From NCBI GenBank assembly GCA_004322275.1, contig SCTA01000006.1:1-64000 (forward strand): a stretch of DNA of 64,000 nt, given 5' to 3'. Position 1 is the stretch's first letter. Each line of letters begins with the position of its first letter. The stretch is from a bacterium. Its GTDB lineage: Bacteria > Desulfobacterota > Deferrisomatia > Deferrisomatales > BM512. This document shows positions 11,238 to 59,918 of the stretch, one piece after another. A program made the position numbers and the translations under genes. The notes beneath the pieces are model-generated. The model ran no database searches. It had not been told where the DNA came from and saw only the letters and a program-made list of their open reading frames with translations.

Positions 11238-11274
11238 TGGCTAATCTTATCGTAAAAGACCTGAGTGGCTTGAA

Positions 11275-13265: not shown

Positions 13266-13279
13266 CGGAAAGTCTGTTT

Positions 13280-15634: not shown

Positions 15635-15648
15635 AGCGAGCGAAATAA

Positions 15649-41932: not shown

Positions 41933-42029
41933 CCTTGCCAGGAACCGGAGACCGAAAATCGGCCCTGCGGGACTCACACCTGAAAGTATAGTATTGATAA
42001 GGAGTTACGACAACTACAAGATGTGGGGT

Positions 42030-43721
42030 CTAATGGGGGCGGGTAGCCCATTCTTTAGCGGGTTCAAAGGTTACGAGGCCGAGGGAGGGATCGTCTTTCC
42101 CGTCGTAAATGGATTTTTCGGGCGGATTTTCGGGGTTCCACCAGTTTTGCGCGGCGTCGATGCCTTTGGAGCCGCTGAGGTGGATGGAATGGCGTTTGGC
42201 CAGGCCGAAGACGTTGTCCCGAAAGGCCACCTTGCCTTCCTCGACGCCGACGAGGTCGAGACCGGCGAGGTCGAACTCGTTGCCGGTTATCTCGCCTTCG
42301 GCGTAGCTGAGGGAAAGCGCGCTCTCGGTGTTTCTGAGAAGTTTGTTGGCCCTGAGGGTCAGGAAGGCGCCCTCCCCCTTGACCTTGAGAGAGTTCCTGC
42401 CGAGGTCGAAGAGGTTGTTTTCAACCTTGAGGGAGCACTCCTTCGCCAGCATTCCCCCGAGCTTCGAGCCGATTACCCTGTTTCCCCGAAAATCGAGCGA
42501 GCCCCGGAAGGCGTGGACGGAGTAATCGTTCCCGGAAAAGAAACAGTTCTCGATGGTTACGGCGGAATCCCGAAAGCGGACGGCCTGCTTGTTTCCGATG
42601 AAGGTGGAGCCGGTTACTGTGGTGCGCTCGCTCTCCTGAAACTGCACGGCCCGGATATTCGACACGAAGGTCGAATCCCTGACGGTGAGGTTTGAAAAAT
42701 GGCCGTGAAGCCCCTGCACGCCATAGCGAAAGAGGGTGTTTTCAAAGACGTTTTCGGGGTCTTCGGAGGAGATGACGCTCACCTTGTCCCAGTCGCCGGG
42801 AGAGGGACTACGCTCGGCGGACTCGAAGACTATCGGGTTTTCCTTCAGACCCACGGCGCGTATCGAGCCGGTGACCAGAAGCTCGCCCTCGCCGAGGTTG
42901 TCTCCGTCGGTGTCTTTCTTTCTGAACCTCACCCTCGTGCCCGGCTCGATATTCAGCACCGAGCCGGGGGGCACGGTAACCCTGCCGGAAATGGTCACGA
43001 CGCCGCGCCAGCTCTCTTTCCCCTCGACGGTGTAATCGCCGACGAATTCCCTTTCAGGCCCCTTCGGCTCGGGCAAAACGGGCGTTTCGGGCGTTTCCCG
43101 AGTATAGGCAAAGGAGAGAAAGGCTGCGTCCTCCGCGTCTTTCACCGTCACCCCGGCGATCGAATCCGCCTTCCCGGCCATATCGACGACGCCGACCTTG
43201 CAGCTTTCCAGCGAAAGGCCGTCACCCTCGAAAATCCTCTCAGGCGCGAGAACCAGACCGAAGTCCGAGCCTCTCACCACTGTTTTTTGAGCCCGAAGAG
43301 TCCCGCCGTCTACCAGCAGCGCCTCCTCGGCGCGGGCGAGGACCGCGTTACGCAAAATGACCTCGCCCTTTGGCGCGGCGATAATTCCGCCCCAATAGCC
43401 TGTCTGGGGCTCGAAGGTCACCGGCGCGTCCGGGGTCCCGGCGGCCACAAGCTTTCCTTCTACGGTTATCTCCGTCTGGGGGCTGAAAAAGGAGGGGTCG
43501 GTCTTGGTGCTGACGGCTTCGGCGAAGAGGACTTTCGTTCCGGCGGCGATGGTAAGGGTCGCTCCGGGGGCGACGCGCAGATCCTCCTCGACGAGGACGC
43601 TGCCGGACCACTCGGTATCCGCGATTATAGTTTTAGCTGCCGCCGGAGAAGTCAGGATGAGTAGAAACAGGAGCGCGGCGGGGACGAGCCGCAAAAACCT
43701 CAGATTCCCCGCACCAGCCAT
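42030..43721 (-). CDS. secreted parallel beta-helix protein
   Basis: A 563-aa exported protein with a signal peptide (FLLILTSPAAAKT). The mature part is built of repeated short strands with regularly spaced Asn and Gly (FVSNIRAVQF, FIGNKQAVRF, NRVIGSKLGGMLA), the signature of right-handed parallel beta-helix (PbH1/NosD-like) proteins. Two N-terminal copies of a VEEDLRVAPGATLTIAAGT-type unit (about 30-60 and 235-265) start separate helices. Function not deducible; a surface or cell-wall polysaccharide-binding role is possible. ATG 43721 overlaps the end of the HEAT-repeat gene. Confidence 0.82.
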   Translation of the reverse strand: MAGAGNLRFLRLVPAALLFLLILTSPAAAKTIIADTEWSGSVLVEEDLRVAPGATLTIAAGTKVLFAEAVSTKTDPSFFSPQTEITVEGKLVAAGTPDAPVTFEPQTGYWGGIIAAPKGEVILRNAVLARAEEALLVDGGTLRAQKTVVRGSDFGLVLAPERIFEGDGLSLESCKVGVVDMAGKADSIAGVTVKDAEDAAFLSFAYTRETPETPVLPEPKGPEREFVGDYTVEGKESWRGVVTISGRVTVPPGSVLNIEPGTRVRFRKKDTDGDNLGEGELLVTGSIRAVGLKENPIVFESAERSPSPGDWDKVSVISSEDPENVFENTLFRYGVQGLHGHFSNLTVRDSTFVSNIRAVQFQESERTTVTGSTFIGNKQAVRFRDSAVTIENCFFSGNDYSVHAFRGSLDFRGNRVIGSKLGGMLAKECSLKVENNLFDLGRNSLKVKGEGAFLTLRANKLLRNTESALSLSYAEGEITGNEFDLAGLDLVGVEEGKVAFRDNVFGLAKRHSIHLSGSKGIDAAQNWWNPENPPEKSIYDGKDDPSLGLVTFEPAKEWATRPH

Positions 43722-44704
43722 CCGCCGTCGTCCCTTCGCAGGAGGGTGTAACCCTGTGCCTTGAGGTAGTTCGCGATCTCGTCCACCGCCGTATTTGACT
43801 GGGTGGTGGTGGAAAGCAGTTTCGCGAGGCTCCGGTTGAGGTCCAGATCGTTTTTTATGGTGTTCTTTATCCTGCGAAACGCCTGCCAGACGAAGCGAAG
43901 AGAGGTTTCGGAGGTGGCGACGTCGCGCAGAAGGTCCATTCTTACCCGGAGGGCCTGCGGCAGCTTGTCGGAAAGCTCCATCGCGTAAATCCGGAGCCCT
44001 TCGGGAGCGCCCGGGTCGAGCATGGTATCCCTGAGGTCTTCCCACTCCAGCCTTTTCCACACGTAGAGAGCGCCCATCGCCGCCTTTCGCAGTTCCGGCG
44101 GGTTCCCCTGCCCCATGAAAGTCTCCACCCTGCCGACTATGGCGGGGTTGAGCTCGCCCGCGGAAAGGTTTCCCAGAGAGTTGACTCCCTCCACGCGAAC
44201 CTTCAACGATTCGCTCTCGACGGCTTTTTCGAGAAAATAAAGGTGCGAGATCTTCGTCCACGGCCTCGTCGTGATGAGGGCTTCCGCCTTGACGCCGGGG
44301 TCCGGGTCGGAATCGGCCATTTCGAGAACCTGCCGTATGAGGGCGGTCTCCTTGAGGGTGCCGATGAGCCTGGCGGAGATCGTCCGAATCTCGGGCTCGG
44401 GGGCCGCAAGGCCGTTCTGGAGGAGGATTCTCTCGCTGGTGGAGAGGGGGGGTGGCCTGTCTTTCAGGATGGTTTCCAGAGCCTGGGCGCGAAAGTTGGC
44501 GGGCTCGTTTTTGTCGTTGTAGTAGGCGAGGAGGCCCGAGTCGCTTCTGGTTTTCAGGATGGAATCGAGACGGAGGCGGGCGTAGATCGACTTCTCCGTC
44601 TGCTGCTGCGTTCCGGTTTCAAGGGCGAAGGAGAGCCCTCCGCCGAAGAGAAGCACGGCGGCGAGAAAAACCGCGATTGAATTCTTTCCCGCCGGCCTGG
44701 CCAA
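43700..44704 (-). CDS. exported HEAT-repeat-like protein
   Basis: A 334-aa protein with a signal peptide ending GGLSFALE and a mature part of helical repeats of HEAT type, for example EIRTISARLIGTLKETALI, VKAEALITTRPWTK and LKVRVEGVNSLGNL. Such repeats bind partner proteins. It ends with YLKAQGYTLLRRDDGGWL. It lies immediately downstream of the AgmX-like gene and overlaps the beta-helix gene by 22 bases, so it is part of the envelope operon. Confidence 0.78.
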   Translation of the reverse strand: MARPAGKNSIAVFLAAVLLFGGGLSFALETGTQQQTEKSIYARLRLDSILKTRSDSGLLAYYNDKNEPANFRAQALETILKDRPPPLSTSERILLQNGLAAPEPEIRTISARLIGTLKETALIRQVLEMADSDPDPGVKAEALITTRPWTKISHLYFLEKAVESESLKVRVEGVNSLGNLSAGELNPAIVGRVETFMGQGNPPELRKAAMGALYVWKRLEWEDLRDTMLDPGAPEGLRIYAMELSDKLPQALRVRMDLLRDVATSETSLRFVWQAFRRIKNTIKNDLDLNRSLAKLLSTTTQSNTAVDEIANYLKAQGYTLLRRDDGGWLVRGI

Positions 44705-44716
44705 AGGATTTCCTTC

Positions 44717-46336
44717 CTACATGCTCGGAAAGAAGACGAAGGGATATTTTACGGTTATCGTCTTTTGCGCGACCTTGGGGAAGGTCCAGCGCTTTATCCG
44801 GGCGATAATTCCGTCGATCAGCTCGGGGGCGTTCATCGTCGTCTCCACCAGTTCCACACTGGTGACCGCGCCTTCCGGGTCGATGGAGATGGCGATGGTG
44901 ACCTTGCCCTCCAGTTCCGCGTTTTTGCGCAGTTCCCTGTTGTAAAGATACCGTATTCCGCCGAGGTAAGTTTCGACGGTGCGGTTTATTATCGACACCG
45001 CCTCCTTCATGCTTATGTCTTCGACCTGGGCGGTCTCGGCGGATTTTACCGCCGTGTCTTTTCTCTGTTCGAGATTCGCTACGCGCTGCGAGGAGGCTCC
45101 GACGTTGGAGGAGTCGAGCGTTGCGCCCTCGACCCTCGCGCCCTTCCACTCGCCTCCGGTGCCGTCGCCGCTGCCTCCGGCTCCGCCGTTCGCGCCCGCC
45201 TTGAGGCCGCCCACGCTGCCGAGCAGTTTGTCGAGATCGACCGAAGACCTTCCCCCGCCCTGGAGTATGGAGCCGCGCGCCCTTGAAACGGCTGCGCCGC
45301 CCTTGCCTCCGAGGACGCCCAGGAGACCCTTCTTGGAGACTTCTTTGCGTATCGCCTCGCGGCGCTGCGCCATCTGCTCCGCAGTTGGTTCGATACCGCC
45401 GCCGCCACCGCCGCCCGAAGGCTCGGCGGCCTGCGCCCTGGGCTGTTCGCGGGGCGCTTCGGCAACTCTTTCGGCGACAGCAGAAGATGATTTTGCCTCG
45501 ACGAGTTTCTGACTGGCCTCTTCTTTCTTCTTCTTTTCCTCGAGCTCTTTTTTCACACGGGTCTGAGCCTGAGGGGCCTCGTAAATCAGCTTCGCGAAAC
45601 GCTCGGGTATCTTCTCAATCTTAGGGGGCTCTTTTACGTAAATAGAGGAAAGGTAGATATTGCAGATGACCATGAAAACGTAAAGACCGGTGACCACGTA
45701 GGTAAAATGCCGGTCCTCCTTCGACATGAAGTCGCGCCTGAGGTGTTTCGGCGTCGGAGGAATCGGCTTGAATCTTCTTCCGGGAGCTTCGCCCCTGGGG
45801 AGAGAGGGTTTCGCGGGCCTGGCCGGTTTCGCGGGCGGCGCGGCGGGACGTTGCGGAGCGCCCTGTTCCGAAACCGGCGCGCGCGCGGGAGCGGCTGCTT
45901 CGGCGGGTTTTTCCTCGACGGCGGGAGCGGGCGCAGGGCCGAAGGTGAAGAACACCCTCAGGCCGCGATAATCCACCCAGCCGCCCATCTTTTCGGTGAC
46001 GAGGAGGGTCTGCTCCGGCGCGCTGCCCCGAAGCAGGCCGAAATCCCCGAGGTCCTCGACCTTGAGGGTCGAGCTTCCGGCGGTTATCTCGCCCGTCATC
46101 CCAGGCCTGACGAAGAGTTCCATCCCCTCTTTCGCGGCGTGGAAGACGACCTCGGAACCCTTTACCCCTTCGATGGGATAGACCATCTCGTTGGAGGTTG
46201 AAGGGCCCCAGCGGAAGGAACCCTTGTCGAAGACGTGTCTTCCGGCTACGCTCCCGCCCCTCTCCACCTGTACGTGGAGGTGCGACGCCCCGTGAGCCGG
46301 GCGCGATTTTCCGGTGAAGCCGAACGCGCCCATCAC
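44717..46336 (-). CDS. AgmX/TonB-like energy transducer
   Basis: A 539-aa protein. Residues 1-130 are beta-rich. A Pro/Ala-rich linker precedes one membrane helix (about 215-235, YVVTGLYVFMVICNIYLSSIYV region). A long Lys/Glu, then Gly-rich spacer (including GGGGGGG near residue 320) could span the periplasm. The last 95 residues form an AgmX/TonB-type C-terminal domain (VETYLGGIRYLYNREL, GKVTIAISIDPEGAVTSVELV). It would take energy from the TolQR-like motor beside it to the outer membrane. It resembles Myxococcus GltG/GltJ in layout. It overlaps the upstream TolR gene by four bases. Confidence 0.85.
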   Translation of the reverse strand: MMGAFGFTGKSRPAHGASHLHVQVERGGSVAGRHVFDKGSFRWGPSTSNEMVYPIEGVKGSEVVFHAAKEGMELFVRPGMTGEITAGSSTLKVEDLGDFGLLRGSAPEQTLLVTEKMGGWVDYRGLRVFFTFGPAPAPAVEEKPAEAAAPARAPVSEQGAPQRPAAPPAKPARPAKPSLPRGEAPGRRFKPIPPTPKHLRRDFMSKEDRHFTYVVTGLYVFMVICNIYLSSIYVKEPPKIEKIPERFAKLIYEAPQAQTRVKKELEEKKKKEEASQKLVEAKSSSAVAERVAEAPREQPRAQAAEPSGGGGGGGIEPTAEQMAQRREAIRKEVSKKGLLGVLGGKGGAAVSRARGSILQGGGRSSVDLDKLLGSVGGLKAGANGGAGGSGDGTGGEWKGARVEGATLDSSNVGASSQRVANLEQRKDTAVKSAETAQVEDISMKEAVSIINRTVETYLGGIRYLYNRELRKNAELEGKVTIAISIDPEGAVTSVELVETTMNAPELIDGIIARIKRWTFPKVAQKTITVKYPFVFFPSM

Positions 46337-46833
46337 TCCTCCTTGAAGACCACGAGGGACTGGTTGACGTACTCAGCCTGCCCCGCGGTGTAGATGATCT
46401 TTTTGAGGAGCCTGAAAGGCACCTGCCTGTCTCCCTGAAGGAGTATCTCGCCGGTAAAATCGATGTTCTTGTTCACCTCGGCTATTTTCTTCAGATTCTC
46501 GGCCTGGGTGTTCAACACTGCGTAAAGCGGCTCGATCATCATTTCGTCGCTGTTGATGTAGGGGGTGACGTCTTCGATGAGGACGTTGCCATCGACGTAA
46601 AGCGACTTGCCGTTGAAGGCGACGGCCACGGCCGGGTGAAGCTGTTCCTGCGACTGTGAAGCCGGGAGCTTGATCGATTCCGCAATGGATACGATCGCCC
46701 CCTCGCCTGCGTAGTTCAGCATCAGAAACACTAGCAGAGTCGTGAAGATATCCATCAGAGAGGTAATCTGTATGGAAACCTCCGCCGGAGAGGAAGGGCT
46801 GAATTTTTTCTTTTTCGTCGGTGAAAATGCCAT
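46333..46833 (-). CDS. ExbD/TolR-family motor protein (second copy)
   Basis: A 166-aa ExbD/TolR protein. The cytoplasmic tail is basic (SPTKKKKFSP). One membrane helix follows (about 25-45), with the conserved region starting ITSLMDIFTTLLVFLMLNYAG. It has the acidic residue (Asp) that carries protons through the TolQ-type stator. The periplasmic domain is long. With the other TolR-like gene and the TolQ-like gene it forms an AglQ/S-type motor. Confidence 0.9.
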   Translation of the reverse strand: MAFSPTKKKKFSPSSPAEVSIQITSLMDIFTTLLVFLMLNYAGEGAIVSIAESIKLPASQSQEQLHPAVAVAFNGKSLYVDGNVLIEDVTPYINSDEMMIEPLYAVLNTQAENLKKIAEVNKNIDFTGEILLQGDRQVPFRLLKKIIYTAGQAEYVNQSLVVFKEE

Positions 46834-46850
46834 CTTTGTCTCTCTTAACT

Positions 46851-47336
46851 CTAGCCGCCGGTCTGAACGCGGTCGGCCAGCGAGACGCCGGGGAAATACG
46901 GACGACAGACATCCATCGTGTGGATGATGTCGTCGTAGATGACCCCGTCGTCTACAAGGAGGATTATGGCTGTCTGCCCGGAGAACCTGCCCCGTTTGAG
47001 ATCGCCCAGCGCTGCCTTTAGAGTTTCAAAGTCGAAGGTGCTACCGCTGAGAGGGATCTTGCGGAGGGTCGAATCCTCGGAGATTATCTGGAATCCCTGC
47101 CTGGTAAGGGCCACCGATATGGATTCCTGCACCATCTGCTCCGCGACCGGCTGATCGACGTAGGTGACGACGTCGGTGCTGGGGAGGTTCAGCTGAACCG
47201 ACGAGAGCTTCACGAACGCCGCGGTCTGGATGAGCATGGGCACCAGAACGACCATCAGGCTCATCGCGGGGATGAGGGGAAGATCAATCTCCTGGTGTTT
47301 TCTGCTTCGCCTTTTGGAAGGGCTTTCCCCCGCCAT
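46851..47336 (-). CDS. ExbD/TolR-family motor protein (first copy)
   Basis: A 161-aa ExbD/TolR protein with a basic tail (SPSKRRSRKHQEIDLP), one membrane segment near residues 25-45 and a periplasmic part (TDVVTYVDQPVAEQMVQESISVALTRQGFQI by feature). At the position of the membrane proton-binding acidic residue it reads LIPAMSLMVVLVPMLIQTA, with no obvious Asp, unlike the copy beside it. So one TolR-type subunit may be inactive in proton transfer. It is two bases downstream of the TolQ-like gene. Confidence 0.88.
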   Translation of the reverse strand: MAGESPSKRRSRKHQEIDLPLIPAMSLMVVLVPMLIQTAAFVKLSSVQLNLPSTDVVTYVDQPVAEQMVQESISVALTRQGFQIISEDSTLRKIPLSGSTFDFETLKAALGDLKRGRFSGQTAIILLVDDGVIYDDIIHTMDVCRPYFPGVSLADRVQTGG

Positions 47337-47337
47337 G

Positions 47338-47964
47338 TCATTCTCCCTTTTGACGGGCTATCAGGAAGTTGATGAACTTGACGGAATACTCGTCGATCTC
47401 GGTGATTATCTTGGTCGTCTTCGCCTGTATGTAGGCGTAGACGATCATGTGCGGGATGGCGACCATGAGGCCGTAATAGGTGGTGTACATGGCCATCGCT
47501 ATGCCCTGCGCGAGGAGCGCGCCCTTCTGGGAGGGATCGGCGTTGGCCAGCGCGTCGAAGGCGAAGATGAGGCCCTGAATCGTGCCGATGAGGCCGAGGA
47601 GGGTTGAGACGTTCGCCACCATCGAGATGTAGGGGGTTCTCTTCTCGATTGAAGGGATAACTGCGAGAGCCGCCTCGTCGACGGCGTTCTGTATCGCCGT
47701 CTCGCTCTTGCCCGCGACTTCGAGACCCGCGCCGAGTATACGGGGAAGCGGAGCGTCGGTGCAAAGCGCCCTCGCGGCCGCCATGTCGCCGTTTTCGACC
47801 AGCCTGCGAAGCTCGGTGTAGAACTTTCTTCCGTCGACGTCGAAACGCTTCAGGAGAAAGAAAAGCCTCTCCGCCGAGACCGCGATCCCGAAAAACATGA
47901 TCGCGGTGATCCAGTACATGTAGGTTCCGCCGTCATGAAGGAACTTTGCTATTGATGAGAACAT
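47338..47964 (-). CDS. MotA/TolQ/ExbB-family proton channel protein
   Basis: A 208-aa proton-channel protein with three membrane segments: about 15-35 (MYWITAIMFFGIAVSAERLFF), about 110-130 (SMVANVSTLLGLIGTIQGLIFAF) and about 150-175. The TolQ/ExbB signature GLIGTIQGLIFAF is clear. With the two ExbD/TolR proteins it forms an AglRQS-like stator driven by the proton gradient. Confidence 0.92.
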   Translation of the reverse strand: MFSSIAKFLHDGGTYMYWITAIMFFGIAVSAERLFFLLKRFDVDGRKFYTELRRLVENGDMAAARALCTDAPLPRILGAGLEVAGKSETAIQNAVDEAALAVIPSIEKRTPYISMVANVSTLLGLIGTIQGLIFAFDALANADPSQKGALLAQGIAMAMYTTYYGLMVAIPHMIVYAYIQAKTTKIITEIDEYSVKFINFLIARQKGE

Positions 47965-48027
47965 CGGTTCAATCCTCCCTGGGTCTTGTCAGACGTCCGC
48001 CCCTTTTGTGGCTCGCGTTAGTCGTCT

Positions 48028-48360
48028 CTATTCCGTTTCGCCCTTTTTGCCGCCGTAGGTCGCCTCGAAAGGCTCAGGCAGGAGGGGCTTCATTATCTCT
48101 TCTTCAAAACTCTTGCGCAGGGCGCCGAGGTCCATGCGGGCTTTACGGCGGGGAATGATATAGAATACTTCCGGCCGCTCCAACTCTCCTCGTATCTCCA
48201 CGTCCTGCATCTGGACCTGAATCTTCTGCCCCTCTTCTATATTCACCTGTTCTGTCGCGGGCTTTTCCTTTGTTTCCGCGCCCGCCGCGAAGGACGCCGG
48301 AAGCGTCAGGAAAAGCGCGAAAAGGGCTACCCCCCCGAGAGCGTTCAGGCGGATTTTCAT
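48028..48360 (-). CDS. small exported protein of the motor operon
   Basis: A 110-aa protein with a signal peptide (ALFALFLTLPASFAAGAE) and a short mature domain (VNIEEGQKIQVQMQDVEIRGELERPEVFYIIPRRK). It starts in an ATGA overlap with the TPR lipoprotein gene ahead of it, 67 bases in front of the TolQ-like gene. Small periplasmic proteins of this kind accompany AglRQS-type motors; the specific family is not recognised. Confidence 0.75.
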   Translation of the reverse strand: MKIRLNALGGVALFALFLTLPASFAAGAETKEKPATEQVNIEEGQKIQVQMQDVEIRGELERPEVFYIIPRRKARMDLGALRKSFEEEIMKPLLPEPFEATYGGKKGETE

Positions 48361-49655
48361 TGTCCGCCTCCAGCCTGCCGGTTGGCCGCCTTGAGCCATT
48401 TCTGGACTTCCTCGTCGGCGGGCCGAAGCGTCAGGTATTTCTCGTAGAGGGGAATGGCGTCCTGAAAACGTCCCATGTACTTTTCGTACAGCACGGCCAG
48501 ATTCTTTAACGCAGGGGCGAAGTTGCCATCGACAAAGAGCGCCTTTCTGTAGTTTTCCTCGGCGCTTTTGTGCTCGCCGCCCGCCCTCTGCACCAGCCCG
48601 AGGTTGTTGAAGGCCTCCGGGCGCGCGGGGTTTGCCTCGCTGGCCTTTAAAAACGCCTCCTTCGCCTCTTTTTGCTTTTCCTGGCGGATATCCAGCAGAC
48701 CGAGGGCGTTCAGAGTCTCGTAATCCTCGGGCGCTTCGGCGACGATCTCTTCGAGAATCGTACGGGAAGAGGAGGCTCTTCCCCTCGCGAGAAAAACCTC
48801 CGCGAGGGCGAGTTTTCCGCGCCGCGCCAGAAGCGGATCCGTATTGTTCTGCGCCTCTTTGGCCCAGCGTTCAGCGCCGGTGAGGTCGCCGTTCACATAA
48901 TGAAGCCGGGAGAGGATGAGGGCGTATTTCAGGGACTGGGCCGGGTCGCCTATCTTTTCCCACGTCGAAATAGCCTTCGGGTAATCGCCGAGGGAGTAGT
49001 AGCACCATCCGAGAGACCCCAGAAGATCGTCCGGCGGCTGGGGGAACTCGGAGGCCAGCTTTTCGAGGAAGGCGACGGCTTCGCCGGTCTTTCCCAGTCT
49101 TTCGTTCCACCTGACGTAAGTGTCGAGCGCCTCGGGTCCCCCCTCGCCCTTCGGGATAAGCTCGGCAAGGAGCGGGAGTCCGTCGGCGGAGTCCCCGAGG
49201 ACGTAATAGATCTTCGCCTGCAGCAACTTCGCGCCCGGATACGCGGGGTCTTTCGCCACGACTACCAGAATCTTTTCAAGGGCGGTGTTCGGGTATCCTT
49301 CGGCGAAGTTTTTGTTCGCCTCGGCAGTGAGGGCCGCGAGGTCGGGGGGAGGCGGAGCGGCGGGAACAACCGGGGCGGCGGGAGCGGGAACGGCGCCCTC
49401 TTCGGGAACGGGCGCAGCCACGCCTTCGATCACGGCTTCGGGAGGAGTGGCTTCCCCTCCTGCCGGAGCTTGACCTGCAACGCTCTCCCCCGCTTTTGCC
49501 TTACCCTCGGCCGCAACCTCTCCGGCAACGGCTTCCTTTGCGGCCTCCGCCCCGGGTTCGCCGGGAGCGCCCTCGGGAACCACGGGCGGAGCGGAGACGC
49601 AGGCGGTGAGGGAGACGGCCAAAAGAAGCGCCAGAGGAAGGAAAAGCTTTCTCAT
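48357..49655 (-). CDS. TPR lipoprotein
   Basis: A 432-aa lipoprotein with lipobox SLTAC (Cys19). An Ala/Pro/Gly-rich linker (about 20-125) is followed by tetratricopeptide repeats (for example ALNALGLLDIRQEKQKEAKEAFLKA and AFNNLGLVQRAGGEHKSAEENY). Start ATG 49655 has a GGGAGGGGGG site in front and overlaps the preceding stop codon. It would scaffold partners at the outer-membrane side of the motor. Confidence 0.85.
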   Translation of the reverse strand: MRKLFLPLALLLAVSLTACVSAPPVVPEGAPGEPGAEAAKEAVAGEVAAEGKAKAGESVAGQAPAGGEATPPEAVIEGVAAPVPEEGAVPAPAAPVVPAAPPPPDLAALTAEANKNFAEGYPNTALEKILVVVAKDPAYPGAKLLQAKIYYVLGDSADGLPLLAELIPKGEGGPEALDTYVRWNERLGKTGEAVAFLEKLASEFPQPPDDLLGSLGWCYYSLGDYPKAISTWEKIGDPAQSLKYALILSRLHYVNGDLTGAERWAKEAQNNTDPLLARRGKLALAEVFLARGRASSSRTILEEIVAEAPEDYETLNALGLLDIRQEKQKEAKEAFLKASEANPARPEAFNNLGLVQRAGGEHKSAEENYRKALFVDGNFAPALKNLAVLYEKYMGRFQDAIPLYEKYLTLRPADEEVQKWLKAANRQAGGGQ

Positions 49656-52537
49656 TTGCCCCCCTCCCATTCCCTGCCGGGAAAAGGAAGAGGCGGAGAG
49701 GCCAGAGAGGCTTCCTCAACCCTCAAGAACGCCCAGGGAAGGAGATTTTCCATCCTCGCGTAGATTTTCTCTATCCACCCGTTCCATATTCCGGCCAGCC
49801 GGGCGGCGTCCACGCCCTTTTTATAGAATTCGATGGCTCGCTCTTCGAGCGGGAAGGCTTTGTCTTCCAAAAGCAGCTTGTACTCCTCTTCCTCTTCCGG
49901 GGTCATCCCGGCGGGGCGCTCGGATTCGAGCAGGGCGACCTTCATCTGCTCGAACCCCTCGCCCGCCCTGAAGAGCGCTTCCGAAAGGGTCTCTGAAAAA
50001 GGCAGGGTGGCGGCGTTGAGAAGGTGCTCCAAAGCAACGTCGAGGTGCGTCTCCTTCATCTCCAGGGCCTTTTCGAGGTCTCCCTTTAGCTCTACCGCCC
50101 GGAAGGAGACAAGCTCCTTGTCAGCCAGCACCAGAGCGGCCTTGGCCCGGAATAGCGCCGCGTCGCCCTCGGCGGGAGTGTTCCAGGCAAGCAGATATTT
50201 CTCCGAAGCCTTGTCGGACTTGCCGCCCTTGTCGAGCATAAGCCCCTGACGGTAGAGAATCTCGGCCTTCCTCCCGTCAGCCGGGTACTTGGCCATGAAC
50301 TCGTCGAAAAGGGCTATGGCCTTTTCGTCCTCGGAGCCCTTTTCCCGCGCCGTCGCGGCCTTGAAGAGATATCCCGCAGCGTCCGGGGCGTCGGGAGTCA
50401 GCCTGTAGAGGTTTTCGTAGTTCTCGGCGACCCCGCTCCAGTCTCCGAGGGAGGAAAGAATCTCCGAGGAGAGGGTGAGCGCAGACTGAGCGAAACGGGA
50501 GGTCTTGTATTCGTCGGCGAGCCGCTTGTAGACCGCCGCCGCCTTCTCCTCCTTGCCGAGCTTGCGAAGGGCTTCGGCGGCGCGGTAGAGGGCTATCTGC
50601 GCGGCCTCCCCCTCGGGGAATTCATCGACGAGGCGGAAAAAGTGCTTGGAGGCCATGTTCAGGTCGCCGGCGGCCTCGGCTTCCTCCGCCTGCTTGAAGA
50701 CGGAAAAGGAGATCAGCTTCAGCGCCCGGTCGAGAGTCTCTCCGGAAGGCTTTTTCTTCTTTACCTTCCTCGCCCATTCCTCGGCTTCGGGGAAATTGTT
50801 CTCGCGAAAATATGACCTCGCGACCCTCTCGGTGGCGTCGGCGTTCATCGCGTTTCCGCCGTGTTCCTCCACCAGCTTCACGAAAGCCTCTCTCGCCGCG
50901 GGGAACCTCTCCGCCTCGAAAGCTATCTCTCCGGCGGCGAAGAGCAGCTTGGGAACGAGTTCCGACTCGGGGTTCAGTTCCACGTAGCGCCAGTGCGCCG
51001 CAAGGTATTCGTCCAGACACGACGGGTCTTGCTTGAACAGAAGTCCAAGCACCTCGACGCGCCGGTAAGAGGCGTTTTCGCGGTGTGAGGTGAAATCGCC
51101 CGCCTCCGCCACCTTCGAGTAGAGGTCGGCGGACTTTCTGAATTGCCCCGCCTCCTTGTAAGCCTGCGCGCCGGAGTTGGCCATCTCGTAGCCGTCCTCG
51201 GTGTTCATTCCGAAGAGTTCGAGGTAGCGTTCGTACTGTTGAATTGAGGCGTTTATGGCCTCTTCTCCCCGCTGCGCCCTCGAATGGCGGTAGATTGCCG
51301 CGAGGCGAAGCCCCTTTTCCAGCATCTTGTCCCGTTCCTGCCCCAGCGCGGCTCCGTTGGCCTCGTCCCAGGGAGTCGCCGGCCGGTAGCGCTCGTACCA
51401 GCTCTGCCGCCTTGCGTTGGCGGCCTCGGCGTTCTGGAGGGCAAGATACGCGGTGATGACGTTTTGCTCCATGTGGAGGGCGAGCGTGGTCAGGGGGTAG
51501 GCTTCTATGGCGGCGGTGTAAGTGGCCACTGCGTCCGCGTGGCGGCTGGCTTCCATATAGAGGTCGCCGACCTTCCGGTAAAGAAGGTCGCCGTACTTCT
51601 TGCCCGCCTCCCTTCCCGCGAGGTACTTCTTCAACCCCTCAACCCCGCCCCACTCTACGAAGTTCCTCCCGGTTATGTCGAGCGTCTCGGTCTTGAGGTT
51701 TTCGCGCGATTCCTTCTCGTCGTCCAGTATCCTGCTGAAGACCTCGACGGCGGCCCCGTACTCGTCCAGCTTGTAGTGCGCCCACCCCAGCTTGTAGAGG
51801 GCTTTTTGCAGGTACTCTTCGCGCTTGCTCGCCAGAACCTGGCCGTACTGCTTCACCGCCTCCTTGTACTGGCCGAGGTTGAAGGCGGATTCCCCCATGC
51901 GCATGTGAATCTCGGTGGCGTAGGGGGTATCGGGCGAAAGCTCCAGAACCTTGCCGTAATAGCGCGCGGAGAGGACAATCTCGCCCTCCTCGCCGTAGAG
52001 ATAGCCCAGGTTGTACATGGCCGTAAGCGCCTGCTCGGTCTTAGGGTAGTTGTCTGCGAGCTGGCGGTAGAAAACTATCGAGCGCGGGTAGCGGTCGCCC
52101 GGAAGTATCTCTCCCTCGGAGCCGTCCTCGAAGGATTTTTTTAGCGCCGATTCTTCCTCGCGGTAGGCCAGCTCCGAAAGGCGAAGAAGAATCTCGGGCT
52201 TTCTGGCCTCCGGGGTTCCGGGGAGGGCGAGGAGATCCTGATACTTCTTCATCACCGAGCTTTCACTCACGGCTTTTTTCTTCTTTCCGCCGGTCTTGCG
52301 CTTCTCCTCCAGCAGGGCGATCTTCTCGGCCGCCTTTTCACGCGCGTCTTTCAGGGATTTGGGCCTCTCCTGACGTATCTTCTCGGTAGTCTCCTCGACG
52401 GTCGGCTTTTTCTCCGGGGCGGCGGGAGCTTCGGCGACGGGAGCGGGCGCAGCCACAGCGGGCTCCTCAGCCGGAGGGGCCGCCGCGCAGCCCGCCAGAA
52501 AGGCGAGGAAGACAAGGATTAGGGAAAACCTCTTCAT
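49652..52537 (-). CDS. large TPR lipoprotein
   Basis: A 961-aa lipoprotein with lipobox FLAGC (Cys17), a Pro/Ala-rich and Lys-rich linker (about 20-110) and then almost continuous tetratricopeptide and Sel1-like helical repeats to the end. Similar giant TPR lipoproteins occur beside gliding-motility (Agl/Glt) machinery and beta-barrel assembly partners. It lies between two other TPR genes in one overlapping operon. The exact counterpart cannot be named. Confidence 0.85.
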   Translation of the reverse strand: MKRFSLILVFLAFLAGCAAAPPAEEPAVAAPAPVAEAPAAPEKKPTVEETTEKIRQERPKSLKDAREKAAEKIALLEEKRKTGGKKKKAVSESSVMKKYQDLLALPGTPEARKPEILLRLSELAYREEESALKKSFEDGSEGEILPGDRYPRSIVFYRQLADNYPKTEQALTAMYNLGYLYGEEGEIVLSARYYGKVLELSPDTPYATEIHMRMGESAFNLGQYKEAVKQYGQVLASKREEYLQKALYKLGWAHYKLDEYGAAVEVFSRILDDEKESRENLKTETLDITGRNFVEWGGVEGLKKYLAGREAGKKYGDLLYRKVGDLYMEASRHADAVATYTAAIEAYPLTTLALHMEQNVITAYLALQNAEAANARRQSWYERYRPATPWDEANGAALGQERDKMLEKGLRLAAIYRHSRAQRGEEAINASIQQYERYLELFGMNTEDGYEMANSGAQAYKEAGQFRKSADLYSKVAEAGDFTSHRENASYRRVEVLGLLFKQDPSCLDEYLAAHWRYVELNPESELVPKLLFAAGEIAFEAERFPAAREAFVKLVEEHGGNAMNADATERVARSYFRENNFPEAEEWARKVKKKKPSGETLDRALKLISFSVFKQAEEAEAAGDLNMASKHFFRLVDEFPEGEAAQIALYRAAEALRKLGKEEKAAAVYKRLADEYKTSRFAQSALTLSSEILSSLGDWSGVAENYENLYRLTPDAPDAAGYLFKAATAREKGSEDEKAIALFDEFMAKYPADGRKAEILYRQGLMLDKGGKSDKASEKYLLAWNTPAEGDAALFRAKAALVLADKELVSFRAVELKGDLEKALEMKETHLDVALEHLLNAATLPFSETLSEALFRAGEGFEQMKVALLESERPAGMTPEEEEEYKLLLEDKAFPLEERAIEFYKKGVDAARLAGIWNGWIEKIYARMENLLPWAFLRVEEASLASPPLPFPGREWEGGK

Positions 52538-54363
52538 TGACTTCCATCCCCCGATTTTTCCAGTTCTTTCTGGTAGAGGTGCAAAGACTGCGCTTCGTCG
52601 AGAGCGTACTGGTCGGCGCGGGTCTTGGCCTTTTGCTTTTTTTCGACAAGCTCCTGCCTGGCGACGGCGGACATCGACAAATCCATCTCTTTTACGAGTT
52701 CGTCCAGCTTCGCTTTCGCCGCCTCGTAACGGACCTTTACTTCCGCTATCCTGTGGGAGGTTTTCCCCAGTTCCTCCCTCTTTAACGCCAGCAGTTCCCT
52801 GGCTTTTTTCTGGGGCTCCCTGAGCGAGACGGATTCGTTCTTCCTTGAGTCCAGTATTCGCATCAGTTCTTTTTCACGCACCGAGACCCTGGCCTTCAGA
52901 CCTTCGAGAAACTCAAGCTGACCGTCGGACAGACTCGCTCCGGCCTCTTCGAGCTTTTGCCACATCTTCTCCACCCTCGCCTTTAACGCCGCGGGGGCGT
53001 TGTCCCAGCCAAGCGTGGAGGAAAGCGCGTAAATGGCCCTCTCGGTCCACTCAAGGGCCGCGACGAGCCTGTCCTGCCGCAACATCAACCCTTCGATTCT
53101 CGGGCGGTCCTCCTTCGGGAAGAGGGAGCCGACCTGTATAACGTCGAGGTACTCGTAAAGATCCTTGTCCATCTTGACAAGTTCGGCCTCGATGGCGTCC
53201 ATCAGGTTCTTTTGCTCGTCAAGCGACTTCTCCACGTTGTCGAGCCGCGCGCCTTTCAGCACTGCGGACTCTTCGGAGAGAGCGAACTCATTCGAGAGGG
53301 TTTCCACCGCGCGCCTTACGGCGGCGAGTTCTTCCTCCTGAAGAAACTTCCAGCCCAGGGAAATCTGCGCGGGAGTGGGAACGACCTCGCCGAAACTCGC
53401 CCCCTCCCAGGTCACCGCCCACTCTTCGGCGGTAGCTCTGGCGTTGGCGTAATACTCCGCCGCGTCCTCGTAAAACTCGTTTCTCTCCAGAGTTCTTCCT
53501 ATAGCCCACTGGTCCTCGTGGGCGTTCTGCGGGTCTATCGCCATCGCGGTCTCGAAAGAGGCCAGAGCCCTCACCTTGTCGCCCATTTCAAGGCTGCACC
53601 AACCGATCGTCCTGAGGGCGTCCGCGTAGTGGGGCGAGCCCTCCTTAATCAGCGAAAGCTGGCTTATGGCGAGCTTCAGCAGCTTTTCAGCCTGGTCTTT
53701 GGTGACGTTTTCGGAGGTAATCGAGGCCTGATAGATTATCCTCCCCCTGCGGAGGCGGATATCGTCGGCGAGAGCGCGGCGGACCTCCCTGTCCGGAAGC
53801 GAGTTGAGCTTGTCCATCGCCTTGTCGAAGATCTCGATGGATTTCGACACGTCTCCCTCGCCGTAAGCTATCTGCGCCAGAGTGACGAGGGCGTAGGGGT
53901 GAAAATTCCCGTCGGCGGTCTTTTCGAGGCTGGCTTTGGCGTCCGCGTTCTGTCCGAGCATGAAGTGACTCTGCCCGACGCGATAGAAGACCGAATCCGG
54001 CTCCATGAACTTCCTGCCCTCGCTGGCCTTGAAATACTTCACTACTTCGCCGTAATTGCCGCGGTCGTATTCGTACTTAACGAGTTTTTCGAGGGCCGGG
54101 CCGTTGAAAGCCCCCTTGGAGGAGCTGAGGGCTCCGAAGAGCTTGACCGCCTCCGGCACGAAGCCGCTGTTGTAGAGGGCCAGAGCCCTGAAATATTTCT
54201 CCGCCCTTCCGGCCTTTTCGTCGGAGGGCAAAAGGCGCAGTGCGTCCTCCCACCGCTCTCCCACCGCGGCCGACAGCCCCTCCTTCTGGGGGGCTATCGC
54301 CAGGGCCGGGGCGGCGGCGAGGACGACGAGCGCTATAACTAAAAGGGTTACTCTGCGTTCCAT
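52534..54363 (-). CDS. exported TPR/coiled-coil protein
   Basis: A 609-aa exported protein with a signal peptide ending APALAIAP. Tetratricopeptide repeats fill residues about 30-330 (for example ALRTIGWCSLEMGDKVRALASFETAM). The C-terminal half is coiled coil, rich in Glu, Lys and Leu. It has an ATGA overlap with the next gene and a 16-base overlap with the gene before it, so it is translated as part of the envelope operon. Confidence 0.83.
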   Translation of the reverse strand: MERRVTLLVIALVVLAAAPALAIAPQKEGLSAAVGERWEDALRLLPSDEKAGRAEKYFRALALYNSGFVPEAVKLFGALSSSKGAFNGPALEKLVKYEYDRGNYGEVVKYFKASEGRKFMEPDSVFYRVGQSHFMLGQNADAKASLEKTADGNFHPYALVTLAQIAYGEGDVSKSIEIFDKAMDKLNSLPDREVRRALADDIRLRRGRIIYQASITSENVTKDQAEKLLKLAISQLSLIKEGSPHYADALRTIGWCSLEMGDKVRALASFETAMAIDPQNAHEDQWAIGRTLERNEFYEDAAEYYANARATAEEWAVTWEGASFGEVVPTPAQISLGWKFLQEEELAAVRRAVETLSNEFALSEESAVLKGARLDNVEKSLDEQKNLMDAIEAELVKMDKDLYEYLDVIQVGSLFPKEDRPRIEGLMLRQDRLVAALEWTERAIYALSSTLGWDNAPAALKARVEKMWQKLEEAGASLSDGQLEFLEGLKARVSVREKELMRILDSRKNESVSLREPQKKARELLALKREELGKTSHRIAEVKVRYEAAKAKLDELVKEMDLSMSAVARQELVEKKQKAKTRADQYALDEAQSLHLYQKELEKSGDGSQ

Positions 54364-54866
54364 CCGGCCTTGCCGTCTTCAACCGTTACAATCCAGGTGT
54401 TTTGTTTACCCCTCGTCACGGGCATCTTCGACGGCTCGTCCGGCGGGCTGCCGAGCACCTGCAAGAGCACCTTGTGGTCGCCCGCGCCGAGGCGCATCTT
54501 TCCGAGTTCGAGGGGCAGCTCGGAACCGAGGACGTTCAATTCGGCTGGCGTCAGGGGACGCGAAAAAAGCAGTTTGTCGTCTATGGAAAGGGAAACGCTC
54601 TTGTCCGTCAAATCTCCCGCTTTCGCCTTCAGGAAAATCTGGGCGACGCCGGTCTCTCCCTCCAGCATCTCCTTTGTAAGCCCCTCAAGCTCCAGACGTA
54701 TGGAGGCGAGCTCTTTTGAAAGCCCTTCGAGCCTGTCCTCGAAGTTCTTGACGGCGGTCTCGGCCTTCGCGGCGTCCTCCGCCTCACCGGCGAAGACACT
54801 CTTGCACGGGCCAAATGCCGTCAGAGCCATTAAAAAGATAAAAAAGAATAGAGCTATTCGCTTCAT
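54348..54866 (-). CDS. exported protein, 172 aa, coiled coil plus beta domain
   Basis: Signal peptide (FFFIFLMALTAFG), then a helical stretch (VKNFEDRLEGLSKELASIRLELEGLTKEM) that can form a coiled coil, then a beta-rich C-terminal domain (SVSLSIDDKLLFSRPL, GDHKVLLQVLG). No family recognised. Start at 54866 has GGAACGGACATG context with moderate ribosome-binding potential. First gene of the TPR run; the 61-base gap to the OmpA-like gene holds a GGCGG/CCGCC hairpin. Confidence 0.72.
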   Translation of the reverse strand: MKRIALFFFIFLMALTAFGPCKSVFAGEAEDAAKAETAVKNFEDRLEGLSKELASIRLELEGLTKEMLEGETGVAQIFLKAKAGDLTDKSVSLSIDDKLLFSRPLTPAELNVLGSELPLELGKMRLGAGDHKVLLQVLGSPPDEPSKMPVTRGKQNTWIVTVEDGKAGWNAE

Positions 54867-54927
54867 GTCCGTTCCTTCAATAGTCGGCGGATTTTGACCG
54901 CCATCTTGCTTCCCGCCCGAAGACGGC

Positions 54928-56232
54928 TCAGGGACGAAGAGCGAGCCAACGCGACCCCTCGCCGGATATCTCTCTGGGACCGATTATCATTCCCGCCCTC
55001 TTCAGCTTGTCGCCGGGCTTTTCATAGACGTACAGTAATGCCCTCGCGCCCCCGCCGAAATCGTTGAAGCAGGTGACCTCTATCTCCAGGCGCTCGGCGT
55101 TTTTCGCCGACAGCGCGCTGGCCCTGCCGAGTCCGTCGCCGTCGAAAAGAAGACTCACTCCGCTGGCGGCGGTCGAGGAAATCTCGGGATCGGAATCCTG
55201 CGGCTGGGTGTGTCCGGCCGAGATCCAGCCGTGGAGGTCGAGATCCGCTTTCTCGCCGTCCCAGACCAGTATGGCCAGAAGGTCGGGAGGTTCTTCGGCC
55301 GAGGCGGGCAATTCCACAATCTGCCCAGCGACGATTTTTCCCTTTGCGTCCACCCCCTGAACGTATACGGGAAGCGCGTAGGGCAGGAGCGCCACGTTAA
55401 CCTCGAATTTTCCGTTTTCGACTCCCGCGGGGTACGGCACAGGCCCCGCCAACACCGTCACGTTGGAAAGTCCCGCCGGAACCTTTCCCGAAAGCCGCGC
55501 CCAGCCGCTTTCCACCGACTCGATCTTTATACCCAGCCCTTCGCTCTCAAGAAACCTGTCGAAGGTGGTCTTCCCTGTGAAATCCTGCTCCCTGTACCTG
55601 CCGCCGTATACAAGGAGGTCTTGCCTGGCGGGCAGATCGTAGGTAAGAAGAACGTCGTCGGTCAGCGCCCTCCAGATGGTGATTCCCTCCGCGCCCTCGC
55701 TGGCGAAAAGGAGGCTGCTCACCTTGCCGTCTTTCAATAGCGTCACCGTGCCGCCCGCGCCCTCCTCGGGCCGGGGTTCGAGGACGACGACGGCGCTTTT
55801 CGGCGGAGGCGCGGGTTCGGGTGGAGGAACGATCCCGAAAAGCTCTACCCAGCCGTCTTTTCGCTCGCTGCTTTCGCCCGCCGAGGCGCAGACGAACCTG
55901 AAGGCGTCCGCTTTCAGCGCGCTCGCCAGCCGGTGGGACATATTCACCGCGTACTGGAGGCCGAGCGAGCGGTTGAGGAGCTTCGGGCCGGTTGAATCCG
56001 TGTGGCCTACAAGGAGGACGGATTTTCCCGAGGCGAGTATGGACTGCGCGGCTGAAACGATCTGCGGGGGGAGTTTCTCCTGCATAGACGCGCTTTTGTC
56101 GGCCACAGCCAAGGGCTTTTCAAGGTTTTCGGGCACACCTCCGAGGAGGACGGGGCCGTGGCGGAAGGAAGCCGCCGCGACCGAAGCCGCGAGCAAAAGC
56201 AGCAGGGCGGCCGTTACTATCCTTCGCAGCAT
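54928..56232 (-). CDS. OmpA-like domain exported protein
   Basis: A 434-aa exported protein with a signal peptide (ALLLLLAASVAAA). Residues about 45-135 form an OmpA-like peptidoglycan-binding domain: SVLLVGHTDSTGPKLLNRSLGLQYAVNMSHRL matches, in two short stretches, the GHTDxxGxxxxN.xLS..RA pattern. The C-terminal half includes ILVWDGEKADLDLHGWISAGHTQP, like the YfaP/DUF2135 domain. It probably links the envelope machine to peptidoglycan. The start overlaps the UDP-sugar pyrophosphorylase end by 16 bases. Confidence 0.78.
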   Translation of the reverse strand: MLRRIVTAALLLLLAASVAAASFRHGPVLLGGVPENLEKPLAVADKSASMQEKLPPQIVSAAQSILASGKSVLLVGHTDSTGPKLLNRSLGLQYAVNMSHRLASALKADAFRFVCASAGESSERKDGWVELFGIVPPPEPAPPPKSAVVVLEPRPEEGAGGTVTLLKDGKVSSLLFASEGAEGITIWRALTDDVLLTYDLPARQDLLVYGGRYREQDFTGKTTFDRFLESEGLGIKIESVESGWARLSGKVPAGLSNVTVLAGPVPYPAGVENGKFEVNVALLPYALPVYVQGVDAKGKIVAGQIVELPASAEEPPDLLAILVWDGEKADLDLHGWISAGHTQPQDSDPEISSTAASGVSLLFDGDGLGRASALSAKNAERLEIEVTCFNDFGGGARALLYVYEKPGDKLKRAGMIIGPREISGEGSRWLALRP

Positions 56233-57629
56233 CTGCCCTCCAGAACGGTTCCGTCAGGAATTACGAGGGGAGGTTTTCCGACGTTGTCTATTTTCACCGG
56301 GCCGCGCACCACCACGGATCTGCCCAGGCGGACATCTCCGCGCACCACGAAGCAATCCGCGTCAACCAGGCTGACAGGATGCGGAATGCGCTGGTCGAGG
56401 TCGTCCACCCCGCCGAAGAACTCCGGGTCGAGGTCCACGGTTATGAAGCCTGTCTTGTTTTTCTTGAGATTCGATATCTCAAGAGGGGAATGCTTGCCGG
56501 GCAGGTAGAGATCGCTTCGGCGCGCCAGAAAATCGCTGGTGGTCTTGACCGGAGCGAAGCGCTTCCGCGGCACGACTATCGCGGCCGCGCCGGGAAAGCT
56601 GCCTATCGCCGCCCCCATTGCCGTCTCAAGCTGCACGACCGGGACGCCTTCGACAACCTTGCGGTTGACGATGAGCGGAAGGGTGAGCCCGCCGTTTTCG
56701 AGCCGGGCGCTAAGGCATTTGAGGTTTATCCAGAGGTTGTTCGTATTGAAAACCGGGAATCTTTCGATATCCTGAAATTCTTCGGCGTGGGCCGAGTCGA
56801 CCTGCGCTATCTCAAGAAGCTCAAGGACGCCGCCATGCCTGACCACCGTTCCCCCCTTTACGTCAACAAAGGTCCGCTGCGTCACTTCGAGGGCGAAGGG
56901 AATTTTACGTTCCGCGATAAAGCCGAGAATCGAGGGGGAGGGAGAGGCCCCGAGGTTGTCGGCGTTCGAGACGAAAAGCCACTCCTTGCCGGCGTCGAGC
57001 AACTTTTTCAGGGTTCCTGAGATATTCAGGGATTCGTAGATGTCGCCGTGGCCGGGGGGGGCCCACCCGGCGGGGTCGCAGGGGTCTTTGAAAAAGTCCT
57101 TGTTGTCTTCGCGTATGCGGGGGTAGCGGTTCTGGAGAAAATCGAGGGGGAGTTCCTCCCCGCCTTTTGTTTTTACCGAAAGGGGGTACCTGGAAAGCGC
57201 CCTGACGGTGTCTTCGTGGGTGGCGAAGGAATTCATGAAGACGAGGGGAATGTCCGCCTTGTATTCCTTTCGGATGGAAAGAACGTGGAGGGCGATAAGG
57301 TCGAGAAAAGTAAGCCCCTCCTTCACTTCGAGAAGGCTCTTGGCGCGGGTCATGCGCATGGAGGTCCCCAGCCCCCCGTTCAGAACCACCCAGGCGACTT
57401 CTTCCATCCGCCGCCTGCCTTTTTCTTCGTAGCCAGCTTCCTCGATTTCGTGTAAAGAGGCAAGGTCGCCGGCTTCGGGCACGCCTATCTTCCCCCACTC
57501 CACCCCGGCGCTCTCGCCGGAGAGGTAACGCGCGTAGGCTCCGAGAAAAACCTCGGCTTCGCGGCGGGTCAGACCAGCCGAAAGATAGCGCCTCAGCACG
57601 CGGTCGAGAAGTTCATCCAAGGCAGACAA
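56217..57629 (-). CDS. UDPGP-family UTP-sugar-1-phosphate uridylyltransferase
   Basis: A 470-aa eukaryotic-type UDP-sugar pyrophosphorylase. VVLNGGLGTSMRMTRAKSLLEV by its key residues (GGxGT...K) is the nucleotide-binding loop. The sugar-phosphate segments PLVFMNSFATHEDT, FPQ-like EDNKDFF and FVSNADNLGA are present. It makes UDP-glucose or UDP-GlcNAc from UTP and a sugar-1-phosphate. A left-handed beta-helix tail (GPVKIDNVG, VIPDGTVLEG) closes the protein. First gene of the leftward envelope block; its upstream region is divergent to the 57719 gene. Confidence 0.88.
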   Translation of the reverse strand: MSALDELLDRVLRRYLSAGLTRREAEVFLGAYARYLSGESAGVEWGKIGVPEAGDLASLHEIEEAGYEEKGRRRMEEVAWVVLNGGLGTSMRMTRAKSLLEVKEGLTFLDLIALHVLSIRKEYKADIPLVFMNSFATHEDTVRALSRYPLSVKTKGGEELPLDFLQNRYPRIREDNKDFFKDPCDPAGWAPPGHGDIYESLNISGTLKKLLDAGKEWLFVSNADNLGASPSPSILGFIAERKIPFALEVTQRTFVDVKGGTVVRHGGVLELLEIAQVDSAHAEEFQDIERFPVFNTNNLWINLKCLSARLENGGLTLPLIVNRKVVEGVPVVQLETAMGAAIGSFPGAAAIVVPRKRFAPVKTTSDFLARRSDLYLPGKHSPLEISNLKKNKTGFITVDLDPEFFGGVDDLDQRIPHPVSLVDADCFVVRGDVRLGRSVVVRGPVKIDNVGKPPLVIPDGTVLEGRCCEG

Positions 57630-59908: not shown

Positions 59909-59918
59909 CGGTGGTTTA

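Follow-up and report, generated by a model that had tools for sequence, protein, structure and literature searches.

We analysed a stretch of 64,000 nucleotides (hereafter the window; positions 1 to 64,000 of contig SCTA01000006.1, GenBank assembly GCA_004322275.1) from a bacterium of the order Deferrisomatales, whose genome amounts to 2.88 Mb in 45 contigs. On the minus strand of the window, from 56232 down to 42030, we found a single tight gene run, with neighbours overlapping or closely spaced, which by its encoded sequences very probably represents the seven-gene standalone Agl/Glt core complex plus extra genes. The intergenic distances vary between -43 and +63 bp from the UTP-glucose-1-phosphate uridylyltransferase gene, which flanks the run on one side, through the HEAT-repeat gene; an amidase gene flanks it on the other. 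The genes are listed below in the order of the run, together with both flanking genes (aa, amino acids; TPR, tetratricopeptide repeat). Signal-like and lipobox-like starts, here and below, were judged by eye from the N-termini rather than by a signal-peptide program.

56217..57629, minus strand: UTP-glucose-1-phosphate uridylyltransferase (PF01704, 8.4e-125), overlapping the next gene by 16 bp
54928..56232, minus strand: protein with a signal-like start, a predicted OmpA/Pal-like domain and then beta domains (homologue in locus L051: PF00691, 1.2e-8)
54348..54866, minus strand: small coiled-coil-like protein whose start is signal-like (Pfam gave no family above cut-off)
52534..54363, minus strand: GltC-like TPR protein, 609 aa (TPR matches; named from its position)
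49652..52537, minus strand: GltD-like TPR protein, 961 aa, with a lipobox-like LAGC at its start
48357..49670, minus strand: GltE-like TPR protein, 437 aa, with a lipobox-like LTAC at its start
48028..48399, minus strand: GltF/CglF-like small protein with a signal-like start (NCBIfam CglF; profile-profile match)
47338..47964, minus strand: AglR, channel subunit of the TolQ/ExbB/MotA type (PF01618, MotA_ExbB, 5e-26)
46851..47336, minus strand: TolR1, axle subunit without the membrane Asp, with Ser26 according to alignments (PF02472, ExbD, 1.1e-10)
46333..46833, minus strand: TolR2, axle subunit with an invariant Asp28 (PF02472, ExbD, 1.8e-12)
44717..46336, minus strand: GltG-type transducer (NF033768 over cut-off; TonB_C 25.6 bits against a cut-off of 24.6; fold matches)
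43700..44704, minus strand: HEAT-repeat protein with a signal-like start (HEAT_2, 5.3e-6, 27.1 bits, just below the cut-off of 27.7)
42030..43721, minus strand: right-handed beta-helix protein, 563 aa, with a signal-like start (PF13229, Beta_helix, 6.7e-17)
40685..41977, minus strand: N-acetylmuramoyl-L-alanine amidase with a signal-like start, the last neighbour (PF01510, 2.2e-14)

A preliminary description of this locus had named an AglRQS-like motor, TPR proteins, a HEAT-repeat protein and a beta-helix protein, all of which Pfam recovered on the minus strand at the expected places; the GltF/CglF-like gene (48028-48399) and the coiled-coil gene (54348-54866) were missing from its list. The beta-helix gene has another start than the mechanically called open reading frame (ORF), which reaches 44261, whereas the ATG at 43721 gives a signal-peptide-like sequence. 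The OmpA-like protein it had named is supported through the L051 homologue and the predicted Pal-like domain, although Pfam gives no match for the protein of the window at a threshold of 0.1. Its structural model (pLDDT, the predicted local distance difference test, 79) resembles the Pal structure 4g4v (TMt 0.61), and its beta domains may be Ig/FnIII-like, with low FnIII TM-scores of at most 0.33. Asp79 of the OmpA-like domain is invariant in the alignment, but a Tyr stands at the position expected for the ligand Arg of OmpA domains. For the HEAT-repeat protein, the profile-matched protein of locus L051 has HEAT_2 at 5.5e-34.

Papers are cited below by their PubMed Central numbers, each for an excerpt of its text. 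Luciano et al. (2011) described a core complex that likewise holds AglR, two TolR proteins and GltC-, GltD-, GltE- and GltG-type genes in one region, to which the run in the window adds the GltF-like, small coiled-coil, OmpA-like, HEAT and beta-helix genes; one further gene is mentioned in their paper. This core complex (the group B genes) occupies one region in all the non-deltaproteobacteria and Geobacter examined there, and it had no assigned function in 2011 (PMC3169522). Among its counterparts in the window, the GltD-like protein has a profile that matches a Myxococcota locus, L108, at 2e-100. The GltE-like protein reaches 27.9 bits with the NCBIfam GltE model (cut-off 225), and other TPR families score above it. 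The GltC-like protein, a TPR protein assigned tentatively by its position, has a profile with weak or no matches in many loci outside the order, and the NCBIfam scan returned no match to a GltC model. Clusters of Gammaproteobacteria and Nitrospirota are matched by the coiled-coil profile as well (E about 1e-7 to 1e-11).

With GltD as the query for the cluster, E was below 1e-200 in 9 of the 11 genomes that share the genus, family or order of the window; of the other two, one (G009, locus L029) matched weakly and one not at all. In the rest of the phylum, 3 of 47 genomes gave E of 1e-50 or near, and two more matched weakly. A scan of named genomes confirmed 202 loci; 80 of them were kept, and these include KSB1, Calditrichota, Nitrospirota, Gammaproteobacteria and one Myxococcota. 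According to profiles, the recurring order is GltD-(GltE)-(GltF)-AglR-TolR-TolR-GltG, with GltC rarer, and this central order is common to Deferrisomatales, KSB1/Calditrichota, Nitrospirota, Gammaproteobacteria and Myxococcota; in the Myxococcota locus L108, for example, GltD-GltE-GltF-GltG is kept. Because the order recurs across phyla, the gene run is more than a chance assembly, and the kinship to Agl/Glt suggested in the preliminary description holds in both gene content and gene order.

Within the order Deferrisomatales, the gene order is preserved in the nine close-type loci (L017-L025) as far as the contigs reach, and in 9/9 of them the genes for the OmpA-like, coiled-coil and GltC-like proteins are found upstream. 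The HEAT gene follows gltG in all six that extend past it (L017, L018, L021, L022, L024, L025), and in five of these six a beta-helix gene either comes next or sits no more than about 4 kb away. The suggestion of new secreted partners is thus upheld for this order, with the exception of the divergent locus L029, which has neither. The amidase gene adjoins the beta-helix gene in L017 and L018 as well. The uridylyltransferase is the first gene of the run in the family of the window, where tblastn finds it in L017-L020; in the DNA retrieved from the order's other families (L021-L025), tblastn gave no match.

The transducer of the run had been taken for an AgmX-type protein, an assignment that does not stand. 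Its C-terminal region matches the AgmX/PglI C-terminal domain NF033768 at 85.9 bits (cut-off 40), and with NCBIfam it scores 72 bits for GltG (cut-off 650) compared with 17 bits for GltJ (AgmX), both below the equivalog cut-offs. The protein has a predicted forkhead-associated (FHA) fold at 17-135, a transmembrane (TM) helix at 206-231 and a TonB C-terminal domain at about 440-539. In the AlphaFold model, a well-scored all-beta N-terminal domain, a helix of TM length and a TonB-like end can be recognised; the mean pLDDT reaches only 65, the linkers accounting for the low values. The best structural matches are to the C-terminal domain of TonB, at Z up to 9.1, and to FHA domains, at Z up to 8.4; these scores are middling by the tool's own note, with many FHA and TonB rows in agreement. 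FHA-TM-TonB is the architecture given for GltG/PglI of Myxococcus xanthus (PMC3169522), and from sequence and model the transducer is best classed as GltG/PglI type. A search of the genome at E 0.001 found one AgmX/PglI C-terminal domain, that of GltG itself, and no second, so that GltJ seems absent by sequence; an assignment of the transducer to GltJ/AgmX was rejected on the higher GltG score, the single domain in the genome and the FHA-TM-TonB fold.

GltF was placed in 2011 in a gene group confined to Myxococcales and Bdellovibrionales (PMC3169522). The small protein between GltE and AglR in the window matches the NCBIfam model CglF at 26.1 bits (6.4e-6), below the cut-off of 90. We take CglF to be the same protein as GltF. 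A profile-profile comparison of 9 rows (the window, six order-mates and two others) with 15 Myxococcota GltF rows, themselves CglF-model matches of about 63 to 105 bits and mostly under the cut-off of 90, gave a probability of 94% and E 1.5e-7. The CglF model matches 107 of 143 Myxococcota genomes at E 0.001, and 2 of 143 over the cut-off. A GltF-like ORF lies beside aglR (E < 1e-2) in 34 of 58 glt-linked units of other loci, leaving 24 without; on visual inspection, many of these 24 have a short motif of a similar kind, which we left uncounted. Judged by these profiles, GltF appears to belong to the core complex.

The preliminary description had remarked that the TolR protein encoded from 46851 lacks the usual membrane acidic residue, and the alignment confirms this, with Ser26 of TolR1 standing where TolR2 has Asp28. 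Thr128 and Thr162 of AglR, presumably the TolQ/ExbB threonines that face the Asp, are invariant in 9/9 aligned rows; given these residues and the kept Asp28, the channel looks competent by sequence. In a first set, made up of the loci of the named-genome scan plus close kin (58 rows for each protein, window included), TolR2 has Asp in 58/58 rows, compared with Asn in 46, Ser in 8, Cys in 2 and Asp in 2 for TolR1; locus L097 of Aestuariicella albida is among those with Asn. Thirty Myxococcota loci, taken as the best AglR matches, gave TolR1 with Asn in 29 and Ser in 1, and TolR2 with Asp in 30/30. A third sample comprised 20 further regions with other matches. Altogether, 120 of the 125 AglR-like genes read (window not counted) have two TolR genes within 2 kb downstream, and the removal of identical pairs left 111 AglR-TolR-TolR units, with a few overlapping loci and near-copies still among them.

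Units were called glt-linked when a GltD, GltE or GltG match lay within 6 kb. The 91 units that were initially linked read, for TolR1/TolR2, 72 Asn/Asp, 15 Ser/Asp, 2 Cys/Asp and 2 Asp/Asp, whereas the 20 initially unlinked units read 15 Asp/Asp, 4 Asn/Asp and 1 Ser/Asp. In wider DNA, GltD and GltG matches appeared beside all five "unlinked" units with a neutral TolR1 (L205-L209). After this correction, a neutral TolR1 (Asn, Ser or Cys) accompanies an Asp in TolR2 in 94/96 glt-linked units, and Asp is present in both proteins in 15/15 unlinked units, all of them from Myxococcota. The two-Asp unlinked units were likewise widened, to about 8 kb on each side except for the short stretches L217 and L220; three of them have weak GltE-profile matches (5e-7, 5e-8, 1e-6) more than 3 kb away on the opposite strand, which are taken as unspecific TPR.

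We built a tree of 108 TolR rows, from 33 of the 91 linked units (28 of these chosen at random), the 20 then-unlinked units and the window, with the column of the trait excluded. TolR1 and TolR2 separated into two fully supported clades, each of 54 rows. Because both clades are old, the split of TolR1 and TolR2 is ancient, and the state of the residue is, as read from this tree, old and mostly inherited. The Asp trait needs three changes on the tree. The two linked exceptions, from Lysobacter (L070) and Steroidobacter (L064), are nested within Asn rows and seem to have reverted to Asp. The earlier proposal that the two TolR proteins may differ in role is therefore well supported as a sequence pattern, in the 94/96 linked units and in the two clades. 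That one partner retains a neutral residue, Asn or Ser, suggests that the axle is asymmetric. A search of the PDB with TolR1 gave no match at E 1, and in the open-access papers searched we found no mention of TolR pairs in which one member lacks the Asp; for the PVC group, pairs of heterologous tolR-like genes are reported, in an excerpt that does not mention a missing Asp (PMC12204202).

Taken as a whole, these findings are best explained by a trans-envelope force machine of the Agl/Glt core type, to which we give a probability of about 0.7. In such a machine, five AglR subunits would surround a TolR1-TolR2 hetero-axle, with one proton-carrying Asp (D28 of TolR2) and one neutral residue (S26 of TolR1; Asn in most relatives). 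Proton flow would turn or ratchet the axle and thereby cycle GltG, whose TonB-like tip would cross the peptidoglycan and pull on an assembly of GltF, GltE, GltD and GltC at the outer membrane. TolR, and perhaps also the OmpA-like protein, would anchor the machine to the wall. The transmission through GltG to partners in the outer membrane follows the model for Agl-Glt (PMC5349195), and an interaction of AglR with GltG was detected by two-hybrid (PMC3169522). Within this scheme, sequence patterns tip the balance slightly in favour of the single-Asp hetero-axle. As for the role, we tentatively suggest, by analogy, that the machine moves or positions material at the surface, either the beta-helix protein or a glycan, or remodels the outer membrane, rather than driving gliding; surface handling is preferred because a beta-helix protein and a wall amidase lie beside the run and because the Nfs complex of M. 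xanthus offers a precedent. AglRQS powers both the Glt and the Nfs complexes and moves surface glycan (PMC3858216). The Nfs spore-coat complex, like the system proposed here, places a Glt-like transducer on an AglR motor to handle surface glycan, although it relies on AglRQS from another locus.

Compared with the M. xanthus A-motility machine (AglRQS-GltA-K), with which the comparison was made through NCBIfam models only, the run in the window shares the motor, a GltG-type FHA-TonB transducer and TPR proteins; it differs in that no GltJ was detected in the genome and that its motor genes are glt-linked rather than separate. AglQ and AglS of M. xanthus both carry the conserved Asp, unlike TolR1 of the window, and an excerpt of a 2022 review describes their hetero- or homodimer state as unknown (PMC9389320). 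As aglRQS of M. xanthus lies apart from its glt clusters (PMC3169522), its two Asp residues fit the linkage pattern. The TolQRA-TolB-Pal and ExbBD-TonB systems of E. coli share motor subunits of the 5:2 type and a TonB/TolA-like transducer fold, and they have a single type of TolR/ExbD with Asp on both axle copies, which contrasts with Ser26 and Asp28 in the window and sets its motor apart from the canonical 5:2 proton motor. To our knowledge, neither E. coli system has an FHA domain or a TPR assembly of this kind.

We also considered other explanations for the run. A gliding machine as in Myxococcus, to which the preliminary description had likened the run, would account for the shared motor and the GltD-, GltE-, GltF- and GltG-type proteins, and the beta-helix protein with its signal-like start could act as an adhesin. 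We consider it quite improbable, since only the core set was found, with no second AgmX/PglI C-terminal domain in the genome and hence no GltJ, and since the proteins of the run gave no match to GltA, B, H, I or K in family scans, no genome-wide search for these having been made. Gliding is mostly undocumented in carriers of the core complex, and the authors of 2011 judged the core alone unlikely to drive motility (PMC3169522). By the preliminary description, its reading would fail if the cluster turned up in non-motile, non-Agl lineages with a known different role; lineages without known gliding do carry the cluster, but no other role is known for it there. A second Tol-Pal system, constricting or stabilising the outer membrane with the OmpA-like protein as its Pal part, would suit the TolQ-, TolR- and TonB-type parts and is somewhat less improbable than gliding, though still unlikely: AglR scores 58.7 bits with the TolQ equivalog model (cut-off 221), family scans of the run proteins found no TolB, and the OmpA-like protein has a start without lipobox besides the Tyr at the presumed ligand-Arg position. 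The run might also power the export or sorting of lipoproteins or polysaccharides across the envelope, like the type IX secretion motor, given its lipobox-bearing proteins with many TPR and a weak match of the PorW/SprE type (39.5 bits, cut-off 250). However, TPR matches are unspecific and no outer-membrane pore family was matched in the run by family scans, which leaves export, if anything, a shade less probable than gliding.

For the motor itself, the alternative is that the TolR proteins do not pair, in which case AglR and TolR2 alone would form the working motor and TolR1 a separate non-conducting anchor or brake. TolR1 alone being without a proton carrier in the 94/96 linked units would suit this, and yet two TolR genes follow aglR in 120/125 cases and both proteins keep their own places and clades in parallel, as partners would; these points are indirect, and we regard unpaired TolR proteins as unlikely, though less so than gliding, a second Tol-Pal system or export.

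Several observations weigh against the force machine with a hetero-axle. The presence of TolR1 and TolR2 in one dimer is deduced from sequence, and two separate homodimer populations fit equally well. The Lysobacter and Steroidobacter units with Asp in both proteins imply that a single Asp is not strictly required. The association of glt linkage with Asp loss rests on about three tree changes and thus on few independent events; an independent-pairs test found 1 to 5 supported pairs, so that significance was out of reach, and the unlinked motors come from one phylum and mostly from one clade. The equivalog cut-offs of the M. xanthus-type NCBIfam models are missed for GltG (72/650 bits), GltE (27.9/225) and CglF (26.1/90). 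In the divergent order-mate locus L029 (genome G009, 1-16000), AglR, two TolR, GltG and a downstream GltD-like gene stand in a different order, with no OmpA-like, HEAT or beta-helix match near the motor genes. The flanks of five non-Myxococcota clusters, compared by ORF positions and N-termini only, have no partner or glycan genes in common.

More speculatively, glt-linked motors may form an ancient class in which the axle is an obligate heterodimer and only one Asp binds the proton. The two-Asp scheme of 36 degrees would then be impossible for them, because each axle would have one proton-binding Asp, and the motor would advance by 72 degrees per proton or by a one-way, ratchet-like push per cycle. 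According to a structural paper of 2025, every rotary model takes 36 degrees per proton and lets the two essential Asp residues alternate (PMC12215075). Motors that naturally have one Asp per axle would test the two-Asp alternation that underlies the rotary models of MotAB and ExbBD, and free-standing two-Asp motors of the AglRQS type would belong to a type of their own. The fixed TolR pairing serves, within the set of units read, as a sequence rule separating glt-linked from free-standing motors. The change that is fixed in TolR1 corresponds in kind to that of AglQ D28N, a mutant in which the M. xanthus motor stops, with proton conductance lost and the machine paralysed (PMC3858216). The core Agl/Glt complex had no function assigned in 2011, and the papers cited here, in their excerpts, assign none.

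Other arrangements of motor genes were seen in Myxococcota. Two tandem AglR genes stand ahead of one two-Asp TolR pair in L185 and L188, and closely spaced divergent pairs of AglR-TolR-TolR motors occur in L197, L200, L201 and L202; in the wider stretches of the latter (L217-L220), every TolR residue read is Asp and no glt-profile matches lie near.

Around the run, the window encodes a PilT/PilU-family ATPase (33267-34286, plus strand), one of four PilT-family ATPases over cut-off in the genome, and a FliA/WhiG-family sigma factor (58410-59117, plus strand) close to the cluster, in a genome where no flagellin match was found. Because of this sigma factor gene, a FliA-type promoter was considered for the operon and then dropped, as the long pattern gave 0 matches and the short pattern 3 against 4.3 expected. 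Neither the scan for sigma-70-type promoters (6 promoter-like sites, 2.3 expected; two of the six lie on the minus strand) nor that for terminators (25 terminator-like sites, 24.2 expected) yielded an operon signal that could be used. In L033, too, a sigma factor gene, of the sigma-70 family, adjoins the cluster. Beyond the sigma factor gene, a DarT-DarG toxin-antitoxin pair (a DNA ADP-ribosyltransferase and its macrodomain antitoxin; 59258-60983, plus strand) is encoded in the window, with both proteins over the NCBIfam cut-offs.

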